A stretch of 44,248 bases of DNA from contig JAIEQB010000017.1 in assembly GCA_019748065.1 (NCBI GenBank), positions 1 through 44,248 of the forward strand, in the 5' to 3' direction. This document shows, piece after piece, positions 12,714 through 42,319 of the stretch. The DNA is from Alphaproteobacteria bacterium. Its GTDB lineage: Bacteria; Pseudomonadota; Alphaproteobacteria; UBA9655. The position numbers and the translations under genes were made by a program. Within the stretch, counting starts at the first letter, position 1. Every line of letters starts with the position of its first letter. The notes beneath the pieces are model-generated. The model made no database searches and was not told the DNA's origin. It was given only the letters and a program-made list of their open reading frames with translations.

Positions 12714-13655
12714 TTATCTTACAGCATCAATCATTTCTCTTACCTTTGCAAGGGATTCATCAAACATAGCTTTCTCACTTGGACTGAGGTCAATTTCAAT
12801 AACTTTTTCCACCCCGCCTGCACCAAGAATAACAGGAACCCCAAAATACAAATCTTTAATTCCATATTCCCCATTAAGCCAAACTGCACAAGGAAGAATG
12901 CGTTTTACATCTTTTAGGTGAGCACTCACCATAGCCACTGTAGCAGATGCAGGCGCGTAATAGGCCGTTTTGGTTTGCAGAAGACTGGCAATCTCTCCAC
13001 CAGCTTCTCGTGTATACTTAACAATTGCATCCAAGCGTTCTTGGGTTATCCATCCCATTTTGACGAGATTTGGCAATGAAATACCCGCAACTGACGAATG
13101 ATGGGTAAGAGGAACAGCAATTTCTCGGTGTCCTCCTAACATTTCACCTACCACGCTTTTTACAGAAACATTGAACTCTTTTGCTAGAAAATAATTATAG
13201 CGAGCCCCATCTAAAACACCAGCCATCCCCACAACACGCTGATGAGGCAGACCTGATTCTTTTTGAAACAACCATACCATGGCATCGAGAGGATTGCTTA
13301 CAACAATAACGAAAGCATTAGGACATTGTTTTTTAATGTTAGGGGCAATTTCACGAATAATTTCAGCACTTCCTGCAAGCAAATCATAAGGCGTCATGCC
13401 TGATATCCGTCGCAACCCGGCCGTGACAATCACAACGTCTGAATTTTGAATGTCATTATAATCGTTTGTGCCAACAAGAGAAACATCTATACGCTCGATG
13501 GGAAAGGACTCAGAAATGTCAAGAGCTTTACCTTGAGGCAAACCAGGGGAAATATCGAAAAGGACAATATCGCCTAACTCTTTTAGTGCAATTAAGTGAG
13601 CTACTGTCCCACCAATGTCTCCTGCTCCAATAATAGAAATTTTTGGTCGTATCAT
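12714..13655 (-). CDS. Malate dehydrogenase-like paralog with altered active site
   Basis: This 313-residue protein of the lactate/malate dehydrogenase family aligns without gaps to the second copy at 26302-27291 over at least the first 180 residues. The NAD-binding GAGDIGGT motif, Asp149, Arg152 and the catalytic His176 are kept. However, the mobile substrate loop reads LRRISGMTPYDLL instead of [13 protein letters not shown], so the conserved Arg89 that binds the substrate and closes the loop is Pro. The motif after His176 is HREIA instead of HGDGM. Normal malate/oxaloacetate activity is therefore doubtful. It may act on another 2-keto acid or have a non-catalytic role. It stands alone, convergent with ctaE, and is otherwise intact. 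Confidence 0.85.
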   Translation of the reverse strand: MIRPKISIIGAGDIGGTVAHLIALKELGDIVLFDISPGLPQGKALDISESFPIERIDVSLVGTNDYNDIQNSDVVIVTAGLRRISGMTPYDLLAGSAEIIREIAPNIKKQCPNAFVIVVSNPLDAMVWLFQKESGLPHQRVVGMAGVLDGARYNYFLAKEFNVSVKSVVGEMLGGHREIAVPLTHHSSVAGISLPNLVKMGWITQERLDAIVKYTREAGGEIASLLQTKTAYYAPASATVAMVSAHLKDVKRILPCAVWLNGEYGIKDLYFGVPVILGAGGVEKVIEIDLSPSEKAMFDESLAKVREMIDAVR

Positions 13656-25136: not shown

Positions 25137-27315
<2,179 letters not shown>

Positions 27316-28458
27316 TTATAAATTATTACTCTCTTTCACCTGTTCCGACAAGCCAGATGGGTCACTTTCATGAAACTTCTCCTTCAAAAAGACGCCTCCC
27401 ATCCCCAAACCTCGTGGGTCAATCCCATGCCCAAGACCCGATAGGAGAGAAAGGGTTACCGGAACGCCCAAAGCTTTCAGAGCCTCTTCCGCGGCTTGGG
27501 AGGCTGATGAGGGCAAGACTTGATCCTCTGTTCCATGGATCAACAAAACAGGTGGCAGAGCTACTTTTAATTCCATTGGGTCATTAAGAAAAGCACCCGA
27601 GTAGGCAACAACGCCAGCGGGTTGAGGCCGATGAAGAGCCATATGAAGGGCCAGCATAGCCCCTTGGGAAAATCCAACAAGGGCAAGCTTATTGGGCGAA
27701 AGGTTATGGGATTTCAAAAGGCCATCCAGGTAACAGTTAAAGGCAGGGGTTAGCGCTTGAATTTCCTTTAAAATACGCAAAGGCTCCCAATCCTTTAAAC
27801 CAAACCACTGATTCCCCGAAGGGTTTACTTCACAAGCCACAGGGCCGTGGGGTGCCACAAAAAGGGTATTGGGTAGCAGAGAGCTCCAAGATTTTCCTAA
27901 AGAAAGTAAATCTTCTCCATCAGATCCATAACCATGAATCAGAACAACGATGGAATGAGGCTTTCCCCCAGAGGCAGGTCCAAAGCTAGGCCCAGAAAAG
28001 GTGGCATTCATATGTGTTTCTCCTAGTGAAAAATTTTGTCCTCCCACAATACAAATTCCCAGCGCAAAGGCAAGAGCCGGCCCCAAAGGAAATTTCGGTC
28101 CTTTCTTCAACACCCTCCATAAAATGGCCATCAGAATGCCTCCCAGACCCGCGAGAATAAGAAAAAGAGGAATTTGCGTGGGAAGCAGCCAGAAGCCCGA
28201 AGCTCCCATCAGTTTAACGTCACCAAGCCCAAGCCACTCCTTCCCTCGCACCAGAGGGTACAGCTTATAAAGGCCATAACCAATAACTCCAAGGATCACT
28301 GCAGAAAGAAGGGTTTCAATACCTCCATAAAATAGCCCCAAAAGTGCCACACCCTCGACAAGAACATTGGAAATGATACCTTTCCGGATATCTTGGACGC
28401 TGATAGCCACCAAAAGAATCAGAAGGAGTGGAATTAAGAGGTAGGGGTAAGAGAACAT
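27316..28458 (-). CDS. Prepilin peptidase joined in frame to a serine carboxylesterase
   Basis: This single 380-codon frame holds two proteins usually made separately. Residues 1-149 are a short A24 prepilin peptidase: several membrane helices with the two catalytic aspartates Asp23 (SVQDIRKG) and Asp80 (LGLGDVKLMG), and no N-methylation domain. Residues 150-380 are an alpha/beta-hydrolase of the phospholipase/carboxylesterase family with a full triad: Ser264 in GFSQG, Asp312 in HGTEDQVLP and His344 in GLGHGID. The esterase half opens with MNATFSGPSFGPASGGKP, the normal start of free-standing relatives, and has its own ribosome binding site. The cell may thus make a fusion, a free esterase, or both. 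It is located between a small membrane protein gene and mdh. Confidence 0.88.
   Translation of the reverse strand: MFSYPYLLIPLLLILLVAISVQDIRKGIISNVLVEGVALLGLFYGGIETLLSAVILGVIGYGLYKLYPLVRGKEWLGLGDVKLMGASGFWLLPTQIPLFLILAGLGGILMAILWRVLKKGPKFPLGPALAFALGICIVGGQNFSLGETHMNATFSGPSFGPASGGKPHSIVVLIHGYGSDGEDLLSLGKSWSSLLPNTLFVAPHGPVACEVNPSGNQWFGLKDWEPLRILKEIQALTPAFNCYLDGLLKSHNLSPNKLALVGFSQGAMLALHMALHRPQPAGVVAYSGAFLNDPMELKVALPPVLLIHGTEDQVLPSSASQAAEEALKALGVPVTLSLLSGLGHGIDPRGLGMGGVFLKEKFHESDPSGLSEQVKESNNL
28009..28024 (-). promoter_or_regulatory. Internal ribosome binding site and start for the esterase
   Basis: On the minus strand AGGAG (28024-28020) precedes an in-frame ATG (28011-28009) by eight bases, inside the prepilin peptidase-esterase frame. 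Translation from here would give a 231-residue esterase, the normal family length. This suggests that two genes were joined when a stop codon was lost and that independent initiation remains possible. Confidence 0.65.
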
Positions 28459-33688: not shown

Positions 33689-35386
33689 TTGGCTCAGGAA
33701 ATTATAAAAAAATCTTTCTCGGCTTTTTCTGAAATTTTAGCTTCACTGCTTTTGGAGAAAGGCATTTTATCATCTGATCAACTCGATGTTGCCTTTAAAG
33801 AACAAAAGCTTCAAAAAGTCCCTTTTGAAGAATGCTTGTTAAATTTAGGATTTTTAAGCGAAGCCGCTCTCACCGAAGCCCTTTCTACGGCCAGTGGATA
33901 TTCGAAAATTTGCCTCAAAACCACATTACTTGACCCCGCCTTAAGGTCCCTTTTCCCGCAAGAAGTCGCACGCTCCTTTTCCATACTCCCCTTATCCTTG
34001 GAGGAAGGAATTCTTCAAATCGCACTCTCAGATATTTATAATCTTCCCGCACTTGATTATCTCCGTCACAAAGTTTCAGGAGTTCAAGATGTTGTTCCTC
34101 GACTTGCGTCTGAGACGGACATCAGGGAAGCCCTTGATCACTATTATGGGTATGATCTCTCCATTCCTGGTTTACTCAAGGAAATTGAAGGAAGCCCTTC
34201 TCAAACCTATTCCAGCTATGATTATGAAAACCCAACGGTCCGTTTGGTTAATTCTATCCTTATTGACGCTATCAAAATGAACGCTTCTGATATTCATTTT
34301 GAACCGGAAGGAGCTTTTGTCCGTCTCCGTTACCGCATTGATGGAATTCTCTCGCAAATCTGTACACTTCATTCTTCTTATTGGCCTTCGATTTGCGTTC
34401 GGCTTAAGGTGATGGCTGAAATGAATATTGCTGAATCCCATCGTCCTCAAAATGGACGCATGACCTTTACCATGGGGCCAAGAGAAATTGATATTCGCGT
34501 TGCTTCTCATCCCACAATCCATGGTGAAAATATTGTGGTCCGTATTCTAGATAAATCACGCTCCCTCCTGGCTCTTCATCAACTGGGCTATTCACAAAAT
34601 ATTATTGAGCAAATCAAGACATCTTTTTTGCGCCCAGATGGAATTTTTATTATTACAGGACCCACAGGCTGTGGAAAAACAACCTCTCTCTATTCTATGC
34701 TCAGTTATATGAGCACACCTCAAATCAATATCATGACTCTGGAAGAACCCGTGGAATATCAACTCCCCCTTATTCGTCAATCAGACGTGCGCGATCAAAG
34801 TCGTATGAGTTTCACAGACGGCGTACGTTCTATTTTAAGGCAAGATCCTGATATTATTCTTATTGGAGAAATAAGGGATTCGGGAACAGCACAAATGGCC
34901 CTTCGTGCTGCTATGACAGGACATCAGGTTTTTTCAACACTTCATACCAATGACGCTCTAGGAGCCATTCCCCGCCTTATTGATTTAGGTCTAACGCGCT
35001 CCATGCTAGCGGGAAGCCTGATGGGCATCATTGCCCAACGCCTTGTGCGCAAACTTTGTCCCCTCTGTCGTACTGAAAAAGAAATTTCTACAACTGAGGC
35101 CATTTTACTTAATTCCTCCCTCAAAAAAACTATCTTTTTACCCCAGGGCTGCTCTTCTTGCCGAAACACCGGCTACCAAGGACGTGTTTCCATTGCCGAG
35201 ATTCTTGTTTTTGACACAGAACTTGATGAGCTTCTTTTAAATACATCCTCTAGAAGCACCTTAAGTCAACTTGCGGGGAAAAAAGGGTATATCCCCATGA
35301 AAGAGGAGGCCCGCCGACGGGTTTTAGAAGGAGAAACAAGCCTTGAAGAAATTTTAAAAACTGTCGACTTAAGGGAGGGGACATGA
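33689..35386 (+). CDS. gspE: GspE/PilB-type assembly ATPase
   Basis: This 565-residue cytoplasmic ATPase powers a type II secretion or type IV pilus machine. The N-terminal T2SSE-N domain spans about residues 30-150. The catalytic domain has Walker A in GPTGCGKTTSLYSM, the Asp box in ILRQDPDIILIGEIRD, and the His box in GHQVFSTLHTND. A zinc-binding tetracysteine (CPLC and, about 40 residues on, CSSC) is present as in GspE and PilB. The start is TTG next to AGGGAAGG, an unusual and probably inefficient initiation. It heads a cluster of five genes that overlap or abut. No retraction ATPase (PilT) is adjacent. Confidence 0.93.
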   Translation: MAQEIIKKSFSAFSEILASLLLEKGILSSDQLDVAFKEQKLQKVPFEECLLNLGFLSEAALTEALSTASGYSKICLKTTLLDPALRSLFPQEVARSFSILPLSLEEGILQIALSDIYNLPALDYLRHKVSGVQDVVPRLASETDIREALDHYYGYDLSIPGLLKEIEGSPSQTYSSYDYENPTVRLVNSILIDAIKMNASDIHFEPEGAFVRLRYRIDGILSQICTLHSSYWPSICVRLKVMAEMNIAESHRPQNGRMTFTMGPREIDIRVASHPTIHGENIVVRILDKSRSLLALHQLGYSQNIIEQIKTSFLRPDGIFIITGPTGCGKTTSLYSMLSYMSTPQINIMTLEEPVEYQLPLIRQSDVRDQSRMSFTDGVRSILRQDPDIILIGEIRDSGTAQMALRAAMTGHQVFSTLHTNDALGAIPRLIDLGLTRSMLAGSLMGIIAQRLVRKLCPLCRTEKEISTTEAILLNSSLKKTIFLPQGCSSCRNTGYQGRVSIAEILVFDTELDELLLNTSSRSTLSQLAGKKGYIPMKEEARRRVLEGETSLEEILKTVDLREGT

Positions 35387-36579
35387 CCATCTATCGTTAT
35401 AAAGCTTTTGACGAAGCGGGCATCATTCACAAAGGAATCATTGAATCCTCTTCACTTGAAACTCTCAGGGACTCTCTTCGCGCTCAAAACTTATCCTTGG
35501 TTTCTCATTCCAGAGATTTTTCCTTTTCCTTCAAAGGAAGACCAAGCCCGAAAGTCCTTATGGATATTTGTTTACATTTAGAACAGTTTGAAAATGCGAG
35601 AATCCCTCTTATTGAAAGCCTTGAAGAACTTCAAAAGACTCAATCCTCACAAAAACTCAAATCAATTCTGGAAGAAGTTAAGACAAATGTAAAAGGGGGA
35701 TGTCTTTTATCTCAAGCTTTTTCAAAGTATCCTCAATTTTTTGATGCGGTTTTTATTGGCATGATTGCAGCAGGAGAAAAGACGGGAAATCTCACCCTCT
35801 CCTATCATCAACTTTCTCAGTATTTAAAATGGCTTGATGAAATTCAGGCTCAAACCTTAAAAGCCTTTCGCTATCCCCTCATCATAATGGCCGTATTTAT
35901 GATCATGCTTTTTATTCTCCTTGTAGCTCTCCTCCCAGAAATTGCCAAGTTCATGGAGATGTCTTCAACGCCTCTCCCTTGGTCCATAAAAACCTTTCTT
36001 GCTCTCTCTCATTTTATTACAAATCATGGATTCCTTTTTTCTCTTCTCCTCCTATCTTTAAGTTTTTCTCTTATCGGTTTCCTTCATATCCACCCCAAAG
36101 GTGCTTACTGGAAATCTCACTTTTTGGATCATGTTCCCGGTCTTGGTCATCTTAGAAAAACACTGGACTTCACAAGATTTTCTCACATATTTGCCCTGAC
36201 CTATAGTAGTGGTATCAATATTCTTTATGCCCTTGAAACAACACGAAATACGATAAAACCTGGACGTCTTCATGAGGCCATAAAGCGACTAGAAGCAGAT
36301 ATAAGAGAAGGACTTTCTCTCTCAATGGCTCTTCAAAAAACAAACCTCTTCCCTTCTTTTATGATCCGCATGATTCAAATAGGAGAAAAAACCAGCTCCT
36401 TAGAGACGAGCCTTCTTTATATTAAGGATACCTTTGATACAGCCTTAAAGAGGCGCGTTGATCATTTTATAGGGCTAATTGAGCCAGCCATGTTTGTCTT
36501 TGTTGGCCTTATATTAGCATGGACTGTCTCTTCAATCTTTTTGCCCCTTTATGAAACCCTTTCAACTCTTGATTATTAA
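35383..36579 (+). CDS. gspF: GspF/PilC-type inner-membrane platform protein
   Basis: This 398-residue protein has two copies of the GspF domain, each with four-helix cytoplasmic bundles and three membrane helices in total, at about residues 165-190, 210-235 and 365-390. The repeat signatures are ISR-like GCLLSQAFSKYPQFFDAVFIGMIAAGEKTG and, in the second half, GLSLSMALQKTNLFPSFMIRMIQIGEKT, each given here in part. It forms the platform on which the ATPase acts. The start overlaps the gspE stop (ATGA), so the two are co-translated. It follows the usual E-F order. Confidence 0.92.
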   Translation: MTIYRYKAFDEAGIIHKGIIESSSLETLRDSLRAQNLSLVSHSRDFSFSFKGRPSPKVLMDICLHLEQFENARIPLIESLEELQKTQSSQKLKSILEEVKTNVKGGCLLSQAFSKYPQFFDAVFIGMIAAGEKTGNLTLSYHQLSQYLKWLDEIQAQTLKAFRYPLIIMAVFMIMLFILLVALLPEIAKFMEMSSTPLPWSIKTFLALSHFITNHGFLFSLLLLSLSFSLIGFLHIHPKGAYWKSHFLDHVPGLGHLRKTLDFTRFSHIFALTYSSGINILYALETTRNTIKPGRLHEAIKRLEADIREGLSLSMALQKTNLFPSFMIRMIQIGEKTSSLETSLLYIKDTFDTALKRRVDHFIGLIEPAMFVFVGLILAWTVSSIFLPLYETLSTLDY

Positions 36580-36581
36580 GA

Positions 36582-37871
36582 ATGAAGATGAAATTCCTTC
36601 TCCTCCTAACCGACAACAAGGCAATTCTCTATAATCAAGCTTATGAAAATATACTAATTTGTGAGGGTAATTTTGAAGAAATAAAGGAACAGATGTCTAG
36701 CTTCCTAAGAGATTTTCCAAAAGTTTCCTTTCATCTCCTTATAGATTTAAAGACGAACTTTATTCACGAAGACAGTTTGCCCCGTCTTTATCCTTGGGAT
36801 CTTGTAAGGTATATTTTTCATAAAAAAAATGAAGGAAAGAGTAAAAATGGCTTTTTCGGGTTTTCCTTCCTAAAGCAGGATAAAACATCTTATCTGAGGT
36901 GGATTCACGTCCCTCAAAACGACCCTTTATATCCTTGGCTTTTATGGTTTGAAACTTTTCCCAAGTCAGGCGGAAAGGTTTTTTTTGTCCCCTTTGAAAT
37001 CGGGGGCCTTCTAAAAAAACAACTGTCTCCCCCTTCTCGCTATCAAGTGCTGTTTTACTCTTTTTCGCCTCAAACTCAAGGCTATGTTATTTTTCAAAAA
37101 AAACGCTTTTTACTGGCCCGCCTCTTTCACAGCAAAGATGACTTTCAAGCTGCACTCCACTTTTTAAGCCGCAAGTTCCCTGACATCCATAAAAAATTGC
37201 AGATTTATTCGGTTAATTCAAAAACTGACTTTCTCAACTCACAGGTCATAAAACTTAATGAACCCAATTGTCTCCTTCAGTATTTTTTTTCTCAAAAAAA
37301 ACCTTCCTTAAAAATTCAGCGCCACTTCTATCTATCACGAACATGGATAAGAACAAGTATTCTAAGCTTTATAGCTATCCTTACCCTTATGAATGGGATT
37401 TTGCTTTATCAAGCTTATGATTATAAGAACAAACTACCCGGAGTACAGACCCACACTAAAACACTGAAACTGCATATTGAAACATTAAAAAGGGACTTAG
37501 GAGAGCAAGACATTCCTTCCCTTCAAAAAGCAATTAATTCTTATTCCTTTTTAAAATCAGGAAACGCCTTTTCCTTCAAGATTTTTGAAAAATTAGCTCT
37601 ACTTTTAAAAAACAAACCTATAAAATTTGAAAGTTTAAGCCTAAAATATGGAAAGGGTCTTGAGATTCTTCTCGATATTTCAATGAAGCAGAGGGCGGCG
37701 CAAGAACTTCTTAAAGATTTTGACCATCTTCTCCTCTCTTGCAAGACAACCTTCCCTCAAGGACAGATGGACGTTCTTGAAGCTCCCCTCAACAGTGGCC
37801 CTCATGAAACCTATAAAAGTTCTCTCTCATCTTCTCTTCCCCTTGTCAAAATCAAGATTTTACTCCCATGA
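36582..37871 (+). CDS. PilM-PilN fused / GspL-like assembly protein
   Basis: This 429-residue protein has a soluble N-terminal part of about 250 residues, one membrane helix (about residues 259-281, TSILSFIAILTLMNGILLY), a coiled-coil stretch and a small C-terminal domain. This is the layout of GspL, or of PilM and PilN joined: a cytoplasmic actin-like domain and a periplasmic ferredoxin-like domain. The C-terminal part (SLSLKYGKGLEILLDISMKQ) fits the PilN beta-alpha pattern. Sequence similarity is too weak to see motifs of a working nucleotide site, so the cytoplasmic part may be structural only. Placement between gspF and a PilO-like gene supports the assignment. Confidence 0.6.
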   Translation: MKMKFLLLLTDNKAILYNQAYENILICEGNFEEIKEQMSSFLRDFPKVSFHLLIDLKTNFIHEDSLPRLYPWDLVRYIFHKKNEGKSKNGFFGFSFLKQDKTSYLRWIHVPQNDPLYPWLLWFETFPKSGGKVFFVPFEIGGLLKKQLSPPSRYQVLFYSFSPQTQGYVIFQKKRFLLARLFHSKDDFQAALHFLSRKFPDIHKKLQIYSVNSKTDFLNSQVIKLNEPNCLLQYFFSQKKPSLKIQRHFYLSRTWIRTSILSFIAILTLMNGILLYQAYDYKNKLPGVQTHTKTLKLHIETLKRDLGEQDIPSLQKAINSYSFLKSGNAFSFKIFEKLALLLKNKPIKFESLSLKYGKGLEILLDISMKQRAAQELLKDFDHLLLSCKTTFPQGQMDVLEAPLNSGPHETYKSSLSSSLPLVKIKILLP

Positions 37872-38443
37872 AAAAAGAGGTTTTAGTTTTGTCACTCCTC
37901 ACGCTAAGCTGCCTAAGTATTTTTTTACTAACCTTAAACTTTTATCATGAAACCAAAAGTGCTTTTAATCAGTTGACTTCCGAAGCTCATAAACTGCAAC
38001 AACAAGTCTTCGCCTTAGAAGGCGATATTGCTTTTCTAAAGCGCCATGAAAATGAATTGCAGTTTTTAAAGGAAAAAGGCTGGATGATTCCTAAAAATCG
38101 CCTCCTAGCCCAAGAAACTTTTGAAAAAGCCAGTAAGGGATTTGGAAAAATAGATTTTAGCTTTGAGCCCGAACAATCCCTTTTAAAGGGCGACATGTAT
38201 TCTTATAAAATTACTAAAATTATTTTGAACTGTGAGGCCATCCTTGATAGCGATATTTTTATTTTCTTAGAAGACATATTTCGAGACTTTCCCGGCATTT
38301 TAACACTTCATGAAATAACTCTTTCAAGAGGTGATGCTCTTACAGAAACCTCTCTCTTTGCTTTAAGTCAGGGGGCTTCACCACATTTTATTCTGGGAAA
38401 TCTTATTTTTGAATGGGCTGCAATGGATAGGAGCAATCCATGA
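37868..38443 (+). CDS. PilO/GspM-like inner-membrane assembly protein
   Basis: This 191-residue protein has an N-terminal membrane helix (residues about 5-25), a coiled coil (about 30-65) and a periplasmic globular domain. This is the shape of PilO and GspM, which pair with PilN/GspL in the inner-membrane ring. It overlaps the preceding gene by four bases and the next by four. Assignment rests on architecture and position, because the family is very divergent. A run of acidic and aromatic residues near DSDIFIFLEDIFRDFPGI matches the helix that PilO proteins have before their last strand. Confidence 0.55.
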   Translation: MKKEVLVLSLLTLSCLSIFLLTLNFYHETKSAFNQLTSEAHKLQQQVFALEGDIAFLKRHENELQFLKEKGWMIPKNRLLAQETFEKASKGFGKIDFSFEPEQSLLKGDMYSYKITKIILNCEAILDSDIFIFLEDIFRDFPGILTLHEITLSRGDALTETSLFALSQGASPHFILGNLIFEWAAMDRSNP

Positions 38444-38784
38444 AAAAGAAAGCATACCTCCTACTCTCTCTTTTCTTTTCTGAAAATGAAATAGCGTTAA
38501 TAAAAGAGAATTTAACTAATTCAAAGGCTTCCTCACAAAATTTATCTCTGACATCACTCATTTATTATGATGACAGTCATTGGTCTCTTTGGCTGAATAA
38601 AAAGCTATTTCATCCTGAAAATATTCATGAACTTGAAGGCTATGACTTAAAAAAAGTGACGCCTACAGGGGCCAACTTTTTTTGTCATCTCAATCAAAAG
38701 GCTTTTTTATTGCATCTTCATCAAGTTTACGTGCCTTTCGAAGAAAAGATTTTTGATCCGCACGAAATAGGTGTATTCTTTTAA
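38440..38784 (+). CDS. Small PilP/GspC-like periplasmic protein
   Basis: This 114-residue protein starts MKKKAYLLLSLFFS, a possible short signal peptide without a clear cleavage site. The part LTSLIYYDDSHWSLWLNKKL looks like the first strand pair of the HR/PilP fold, which in GspC and PilP contacts the secretin. It overlaps the PilO-like gene and is the last gene of the tightly packed cluster. I base the call mainly on position after the PilO-like gene, where pilP normally lies. Standalone homology is not visible by eye, so it could be another accessory factor. Confidence 0.4.
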   Translation: MKKKAYLLLSLFFSENEIALIKENLTNSKASSQNLSLTSLIYYDDSHWSLWLNKKLFHPENIHELEGYDLKKVTPTGANFFCHLNQKAFLLHLHQVYVPFEEKIFDPHEIGVFF

Positions 38785-40748: not shown

Positions 40749-40888
40749 AATCTACTCTCCTTCATTTAAAAATCTATACTCTCTTATAAAGGGAATTTTG
40801 ATCATTTGGCAATTAGAGAATTAATATATTGGGGATTTACGATTCTCTCAAAAGGAAGGATAATTCGCGTTTAAAAGGAGTTAACATC

Positions 40889-42319
40889 ATGCGGCGTCAA
40901 CGTTGCGCAAAAATTATCGCCACCTTAGGTCCAGCCAGTTCCTCTCCGGAAATGATTGAACAATTATTTCTCACAGGCGTGGATGTGTTTCGCCTTAACT
41001 TTTCCCATGGGAGCCATGAAGACCATGCTAGGCGCTATAACATTATTCGCGATCTTGAAAAAAAACTGAATCGGCCCATTGGTATTCTGATGGATCTACA
41101 AGGCCCTAAGCTCCGCGTTGGAACCTTTCGTGAGCCCATTGTTCTGCACGAGAATACAACTTTTACCTTGGATCAAGATCCCACCCCCGGAAATGAGAAT
41201 CGAGTTTTTTTGCCTCACCCCGAAATCTTTAAAGCCATCAAAAAAGACGTCTTCCTTCTTCTTGATGATGGAAAGATCCGCCTGCAAGTCTTGAATAATA
41301 CCCCTGATAAAATCGAAACAACGGTCCTTATTGGCGGCCCTCTTTCCGAGAGAAAAGGTGTGAACGTTCCCTCCGCCACCCTTCCCATCTCTGCTATGAC
41401 AGCGAAAGACAGAGAAGACCTAGCTTTTGGATTAAAGCTAGGCATAGACTGGGTAGCTCTTTCCTTTGTTCAGCACCCAAAAGATGTTATTGAGGCGAGA
41501 GAAATTATTGGCGAGAAGGCGGGCATTGTTTCTAAGCTTGAAAAGCCTTCAGCTATTAACCATTTGGATGAAATTGTGCACCTTTCTGATGCTATTATGA
41601 TAGCCCGTGGAGATCTAGGCGTAGAAATGTTACCCGAAGAAGTTCCCAGCATTCAAAAGCGCATTGTGCGCACGTGCCGGAAAGCCGGAAAGCCTGTTGT
41701 TGTAGCAACCCAAATGCTTGATTCTATGATCAAACACCCTACTCCTACTCGGGCTGAAGCCTCAGACGTTGCAACGGCTATTTATGACAGCGCTGATGCG
41801 GTCATGCTTTCAGCTGAATCAGCTTCCGGATGCTATCCTCTTGAATCAGTTGCCATCATGGACCGCATCATTACCCATGTGGAACATGATCCTTTTTACC
41901 GGAAAATGCAAGAAGCTAGCCTACCAGAGCCAGAAGCAACAACGTCCGATGCCATTACAGCGGCTGCCCGTCAAGTAGCTCACACCATTAAAGCCGCGGC
42001 CATTGTTACCTTCACAAGCAAGGGAGGAACAACTTTTAGAGCTGCTCGAGAGCGGCCTGAGGTTCCCATTTTGGCCATTACCCCAGAACGACTAACAGCG
42101 CGCAAACTTTCCCTTGTTTGGGGGGTTCATGCGGTAATAAGTAACGACGTTAAAAGCTTTTCAGAAGCTGTTGAAAGTGCATGCCGCGTGGCAAAAAAGG
42201 AAGAATTTGCAAAACTGGGGGACCTTATTGTTGTCACGGCGGGAGTTCCTTTCCGGGTTTCTGGAACGACAAACATCTTGCGTATCGCAAGCATTAATCT
42301 TCATAATGCCCATGAATGA
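40889..42319 (+). CDS. pyk: Pyruvate kinase
   Basis: This 476-residue enzyme makes pyruvate and ATP from phosphoenolpyruvate and ADP. Visible motifs are KIIATLGPASSSPEM at the start, NFSHGSHEDH, MDLQGPKLRVG, the catalytic-site segment IMIARGDLGVEML and KPVVVATQMLDSM, followed by PTRAEASDVATAIYDSADAVMLSAE in part. The C-terminal allosteric domain includes TFTSKGGTTFRAARERP. I chose the ATG at 40889, with AAGGAG eight bases upstream, over an in-frame ATG 20 codons earlier. The gene overlaps the start of the ABC1 kinase gene. Confidence 0.96.
   Translation: MRRQRCAKIIATLGPASSSPEMIEQLFLTGVDVFRLNFSHGSHEDHARRYNIIRDLEKKLNRPIGILMDLQGPKLRVGTFREPIVLHENTTFTLDQDPTPGNENRVFLPHPEIFKAIKKDVFLLLDDGKIRLQVLNNTPDKIETTVLIGGPLSERKGVNVPSATLPISAMTAKDREDLAFGLKLGIDWVALSFVQHPKDVIEAREIIGEKAGIVSKLEKPSAINHLDEIVHLSDAIMIARGDLGVEMLPEEVPSIQKRIVRTCRKAGKPVVVATQMLDSMIKHPTPTRAEASDVATAIYDSADAVMLSAESASGCYPLESVAIMDRIITHVEHDPFYRKMQEASLPEPEATTSDAITAAARQVAHTIKAAAIVTFTSKGGTTFRAARERPEVPILAITPERLTARKLSLVWGVHAVISNDVKSFSEAVESACRVAKKEEFAKLGDLIVVTAGVPFRVSGTTNILRIASINLHNAHE

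Follow-up and report, generated by a model that had tools for sequence, protein, structure and literature searches.

A prepilin peptidase and an esterase in one reading frame, probably joined by loss of a stop codon, with a conserved candidate start inside the frame

The fused frame and its surroundings

The locus lies in a window of 44,248 nucleotides (positions 1-44248), the whole stretch of DNA that was analyzed, and the coordinates of the frame are numbered within it. The frame runs on the minus strand from an ATG at 28458 to a stop codon at 27318-27316. The features that bear on its interpretation are as follows.

26302-27291, minus strand: malate dehydrogenase (mdh) gene, directly downstream of the fused frame
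27316-28458, minus strand: whole fused frame of 380 amino acids (A24 peptidase, linker, and esterase), open in 13 of 14 same-genus loci
28123-28428, minus strand: Peptidase_A24 domain, residues 11-112, matched by a Pfam profile
28392-28390, minus strand: catalytic Asp23
28221-28219, minus strand: catalytic Asp80, within GLGD
28012-28044, minus strand: linker, residues 139-149, variable in sequence and of low model confidence, with a TAA in species G002
28020-28024, minus strand: internal Shine-Dalgarno (SD) site AGGAG, with GGAG at a spacing of 8 in 14 of 14 species
28009-28011, minus strand: internal ATG, codon 150, invariant in 14 of 14 species and aligned with the true esterase start of outgroups G015 and G016
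27319-28011, minus strand: esterase (Abhydrolase_2), residues 150-380
27669-27667, 27525-27523, and 27429-27427, minus strand: esterase triad Ser264, Asp312, and His344
33689-36579, plus strand: genes for a type II/IV secretion ATPase (T2SSE) and a platform protein (T2SSF), likely partners of the peptidase

A preliminary description, which left the strand unstated, proposed that a single frame encodes an A24 peptidase and a complete esterase. Both domains indeed score above their Pfam cut-offs in hmmscan searches, Peptidase_A24 (PF01478) at 55 bits against a curated cut-off of 26.5 over residues 11-112 and Abhydrolase_2 (PF02230) at 112.7 bits against 23 over residues 164-352. The five catalytic residues named in that description are correctly placed, and D23, D80, S264, D312, and H344 are invariant in an alignment of 12 full-frame proteins, as is the peptidase GxGD motif (G77-x-G79-D80); the Ser-Asp-His triad of the esterase half stands in a GFSQG context. 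A Pfam profile search of the fused protein gave no match to the methylase domain A24_N_bact (PF06750), which is present in the peptidase counterparts of the sister genera, G015 and G016. In an AlphaFold model (mean pLDDT 71), the helices and the fold of the hydrolase can be recognized, and the linker is disordered and unplaced; we drew on it for helix limits and fold family only and left domain packing aside.

Because genes for T2SSE and T2SSF lie nearby, the peptidase half can be assigned, by neighborhood only, to a T2SS-type machine, and from its family and its neighborhood it would process the type IV pilin-like proteins of that machine. Three ORFs that follow the T2SSF gene (36582-38784) have no Pfam match and are, by position, possibly divergent GspL/GspM-like parts. 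The fused gene is not the only prepilin peptidase gene of the genome, an idea that we rejected on finding a second, CpaA-like A24 gene on another contig (C82) with cpaB- and secretin-like neighbors. Two candidate substrates that bear N_methyl are also encoded on C82.

Prepilin peptidases have a cytoplasmic active site, with four cytoplasmic loops for eight transmembrane segments (PMC10191384). In agreement with that topology, Lys and Arg residues in the peptidase half together average 2.0 (loop 1), 3.0 (loop 3), and 3.3 (loop 5), as opposed to 0.07 in loop 2, 0 in loop 4, and approximately 0 at the N-terminus. Both catalytic aspartates are thus predicted to face the cytoplasm, with the C-terminus of the peptidase outside. 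By this positive-inside distribution, the esterase would be periplasmic when fused and cytosolic when started internally. If the full-length form is stable, this would be a new way to place one enzyme in two compartments. Paralogous Abhydrolase_2 esterases that are 49-51% identical to the fused esterase are encoded in G010 (L040, 1468-2250) and G149 (L053, 3198-3977), and these have hydrophobic, signal-like N-termini, which suggests that the esterase family is probably exported in some relatives.

Conservation and origin of the join

A search of the relatives of this genome found the two-domain locus in 14 same-genus genomes at 54-91% identity. With each locus read in its own strand, the join reads through in 13 of the 14, and conservation in related genomes, which the preliminary description had put forward as one of the checks to make, is therefore borne out. 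Stops in G006, G012, and G011 were considered as breaks of the join and rejected, as they are located near the C-terminus. A fifteenth member of the genus, G001, was left out of the count because its contig ends beside mdh; this genome has two free esterase genes that hardly differ from each other and lie on different contigs (L039 and L041), one of them near a transposase-like ORF. That a missed stop or a frameshift, in sequencing or assembly, has produced the join artificially is a notion to which we give almost no credence: the records of the close relatives are all draft metagenome assemblies of uncultured Alphaproteobacteria, but the open join recurs in 13 independently assembled species genomes that differ by many substitutions, and with 13 of 14 genus members fused we take the join to be real.

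The exception is G002, in which the linker reads GGG AAT TAA AGC TTA TCA and thus holds a stop between the two domains, yet both halves still score as intact domains. In a tree of sucA and sucC, G002 is nested among fused species, and G011, G005/G007, and G008 branch deeper. One fusion and one re-split would suffice to explain this pattern, as against about six separate fusions. Given that the relevant branches have moderate support (42 to 97% SH-aLRT), we regard the re-split as likely rather than certain. The position of G002 and the integrity of its halves suggest that a fused ancestor could split again with neither half lost.

The outgroups point to how the join arose. The order comprised three genera only, with G015 and G016 representing the sister genera. 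In G015 the peptidase gene is full-length and shares one frame with the esterase gene, from which it is separated by a single stop: the junction (ATT TGA GGA GAG ACT TTC ACA ATG) passes from the TGA directly to GGAGAG and the esterase ATG. In G016 approximately 1 kb separates the two genes. In G330, from another family, a peptidase gene ending in TGA comes first, then the esterase gene, then mdh, and the first two again share one frame with one stop at their junction (CGA TGA AAG CCG TTT ATG); an apparent fusion in this genome was rejected on account of the TGA and the 9 nt between stop and ATG. An apparent long match in G664 was likewise rejected, being a free esterase beside an ABC-transporter-like gene. 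Since the genes of G015 and G330 are adjacent and in frame with a single stop between them, the fusion appears to have arisen by losing one stop. The preliminary description had held that a stop between the domains in close relatives would speak against it; such a stop is found in one genus member (G002, 1 of 14) and in outgroups G015 and G330, whereas the other 13 of the 14 are fused.

The esterase is paired with mdh in the absence of an adjacent peptidase gene in other alphaproteobacterial families (G028, G035, and G297). Based on these comparisons, the simplest history would be that an esterase-mdh cluster existed, that a peptidase gene came to be placed upstream of it, and that a single stop was lost in the ancestor of the genus. 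The ancestral state would have been an adjacent, in-frame pair, with mdh after it, in which a few bases separated the stop of the prepilin peptidase gene from the start of the next gene; that gene would have encoded a soluble Abhydrolase_2 esterase under an SD and ATG of its own. Loss of the peptidase stop would then have joined the two frames, and selection would have kept the SD and ATG of the esterase. The peptidase of the genus has evidently also lost A24_N_bact, which G015 and G016 keep. The window holds two malate-dehydrogenase-like genes, at 12714-13655 and 26302-27291.

It had further been suggested that the fusion couples pilin processing to lipid or ester hydrolysis. We find no support for this proposal, because the esterase goes with mdh in families that have no adjacent peptidase gene and because the predicted topology puts the peptidase site in the cytoplasm and the fused esterase on the opposite side of the membrane.

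The internal start and the products of the frame

The preliminary description noted an AGGAG eight bases ahead of the internal ATG, and this holds exactly, with AGGAG at 28024-28020, ATG at 28011-28009, and 8 bases between them. Taken alone, an internal SD with an ATG is not remarkable: the combination occurs at 6 of the 276 in-frame internal ATGs of the ORFs in the window. Its conservation is a different matter. GGAG precedes the ATG by exactly 8 nt in every one of the 14 species, and in 10 of these it is part of AAGGAG; Met150 is invariant, whereas residues 148-149 of the spacer vary freely. A second SD-like site in the same ORF, a GGAGG before Met110, is not conserved and serves as an internal control. 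Thus, the site at codon 150 exceeds chance, being kept in 14 of 14 species amid variable neighbors.

The same constraint is visible at single codons. Codon 146, the glycine within the SD, is GGA in 14 of 14 species, although GGA makes up 254 of the 618 glycine codons in these frames (41%) and the next highest GGA count among 26 near-invariant glycine columns is 11 of 14. Counted on the species tree, codon 146 has undergone zero synonymous changes and is unique in this among 37 invariant fourfold-degenerate columns, the others having 2-9; a rank test gives about 1 in 37, with species that are not independent. Codon 147 encodes Glu or Asp throughout (GAN). These comparisons indicate that the nucleotide signal of the SD is constrained beyond the need of the protein, and from this we infer that initiation at codon 150 yields a free esterase in the cytosol. 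The SD could instead be a remnant of the former gene start that is decaying slowly, but slow decay would hardly have left it in 14 of 14 species so far diverged. We regard the internal start as the best-supported feature of the frame.

No SD match longer than 4 nt precedes the peptidase start in any of the 13 cases examined. A 5-base SD match occurs at only 4 of the 34 assumed gene starts in the window (1-44248); strong SD sites are therefore uncommon there, and the one before codon 150 ranks with the best of them. The pyruvate kinase ORF (40829-42319) has a TTG start and, 20 codons on, an in-frame ATG with AGGAG at 8 nt that is the likelier true start.

Between a bifunctional enzyme and two products, which the preliminary description had left side by side, the comparative evidence favors two products: all 14 species retain the SD and ATG, the SD glycine is constrained, and the esterase of G002 is intact behind a stop. 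We consider it probable that loss of a stop fused a pair of genes, that the SD and ATG of the esterase were kept, and that the frame gives both a free esterase and a membrane-anchored fusion. The first product would be a free cytosolic esterase of 25 kDa initiated at codon 150, for which there is strong comparative support. The second, to be expected wherever ribosomes start at the upstream ATG, would be a membrane-anchored peptidase-esterase of 41 kDa, its peptidase active site facing the cytoplasm and its esterase lying beyond the last membrane helix, toward the periplasm. Most likely, the frame gives free esterase in addition to the fused protein, or in larger amounts than it.

The strongest rival to this reading, to which we grant a little less than an even chance, is that the fusion is neutral: the peptidase would tolerate a C-terminal extension, nearly all useful esterase would come from the internal start, and the fused by-product would perhaps be degraded. 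Judged by SD match, the peptidase start is much weaker than the internal site, and the join is dispensable in G002, where the open frame is evidently not indispensable. The openness of the linker elsewhere bears on the same question. In a neutral simulation at third-position rates, with root codons chosen by hand to be consensus-like, a stop in the 11-codon linker is expected at about 6 of 14 tips, and one or no stop has a P of 0.04-0.12 depending on the rate. Neutrality is accordingly not rejected at the conventional level over all rates; however, the linker is open in 13 of 14 deeply diverged species, and stops tend to be fewer than neutrality would predict. We take this as a weak, suggestive sign of selection to keep the linker open.

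The same simulation, together with active sites that are intact in both halves of all aligned proteins, could be read to mean that the frame makes mainly one bifunctional membrane protein, that the fusion itself was selected, and that the SD and ATG at codon 150 are vestigial. We think this improbable, as protein function explains neither the invariant ATG nor the lack of any synonymous change in the SD glycine codon, the frame of G002 is split, and the sequence of the linker is variable.

The preferred reading, a stop-loss fusion that yields two products, would make this locus a clean natural record of gene fusion through the loss of one stop codon, a record that includes single-stop outgroups, a genus-wide fusion, an initiation site kept as synonymous constraint, and one apparent re-split. 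The locus also offers a simple test case for whether a bacterial protein that databases list as fused is produced in no other form, and a warning for Rosetta Stone inference that an annotated fusion need not imply a functional link between its domains.

Comparison with known systems

Neither domain is unusual, and each belongs to a well-described family; two products from one frame are already known in bacteria. Samples of 385 genomes from the class and 398 from the phylum, which overlap and for which only matches over set E-values were listed, held no Peptidase_A24-esterase fusion outside the genus, and no peptidase-esterase fusion was found in the open-licence papers searched.

The peptidase half resembles prepilin peptidases of the GspO/PilD type (MEROPS A24; PF01478 with PF06750) in its A24 domain, two catalytic aspartates, GxGD motif, predicted cytoplasmic active site, and adjacent T2SSE/T2SSF genes. 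It differs from them in that the fused protein is without the N-terminal A24_N_bact domain (methylase, zinc), so that the four-cysteine A24_N_bact that marks bifunctional PilD/GspO is missing, and in that it carries an in-frame C-terminal esterase. Peptidases of the CpaA/TadV type, which are without the methylase domain, are similar in having the peptidase domain only and an A24 part of similar length, but the CpaA-like gene of this genome stands separately on C82 and the fused one is near T2SS-type genes.

By Foldseek and phmmer, the esterase half is nearest to the Abhydrolase_2 carboxylesterases PE8 (PDB 5dwd) and 4fhz, with which it shares approximately 40% identity, the fold, and the catalytic triad; those enzymes differ in being free-standing and soluble. 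In-frame internal starts that give a short C-terminal isoform have been described for the bacterial proteins ClpB (PMC6168691) and SpaO (PMC13059759). As in those cases, one frame would here give long and short products from two starts, the internal one being our proposal. Unlike in ClpB and SpaO, the short product would be a complete, unrelated enzyme that was once a separate gene, and its stop-loss origin is visible in the outgroups.
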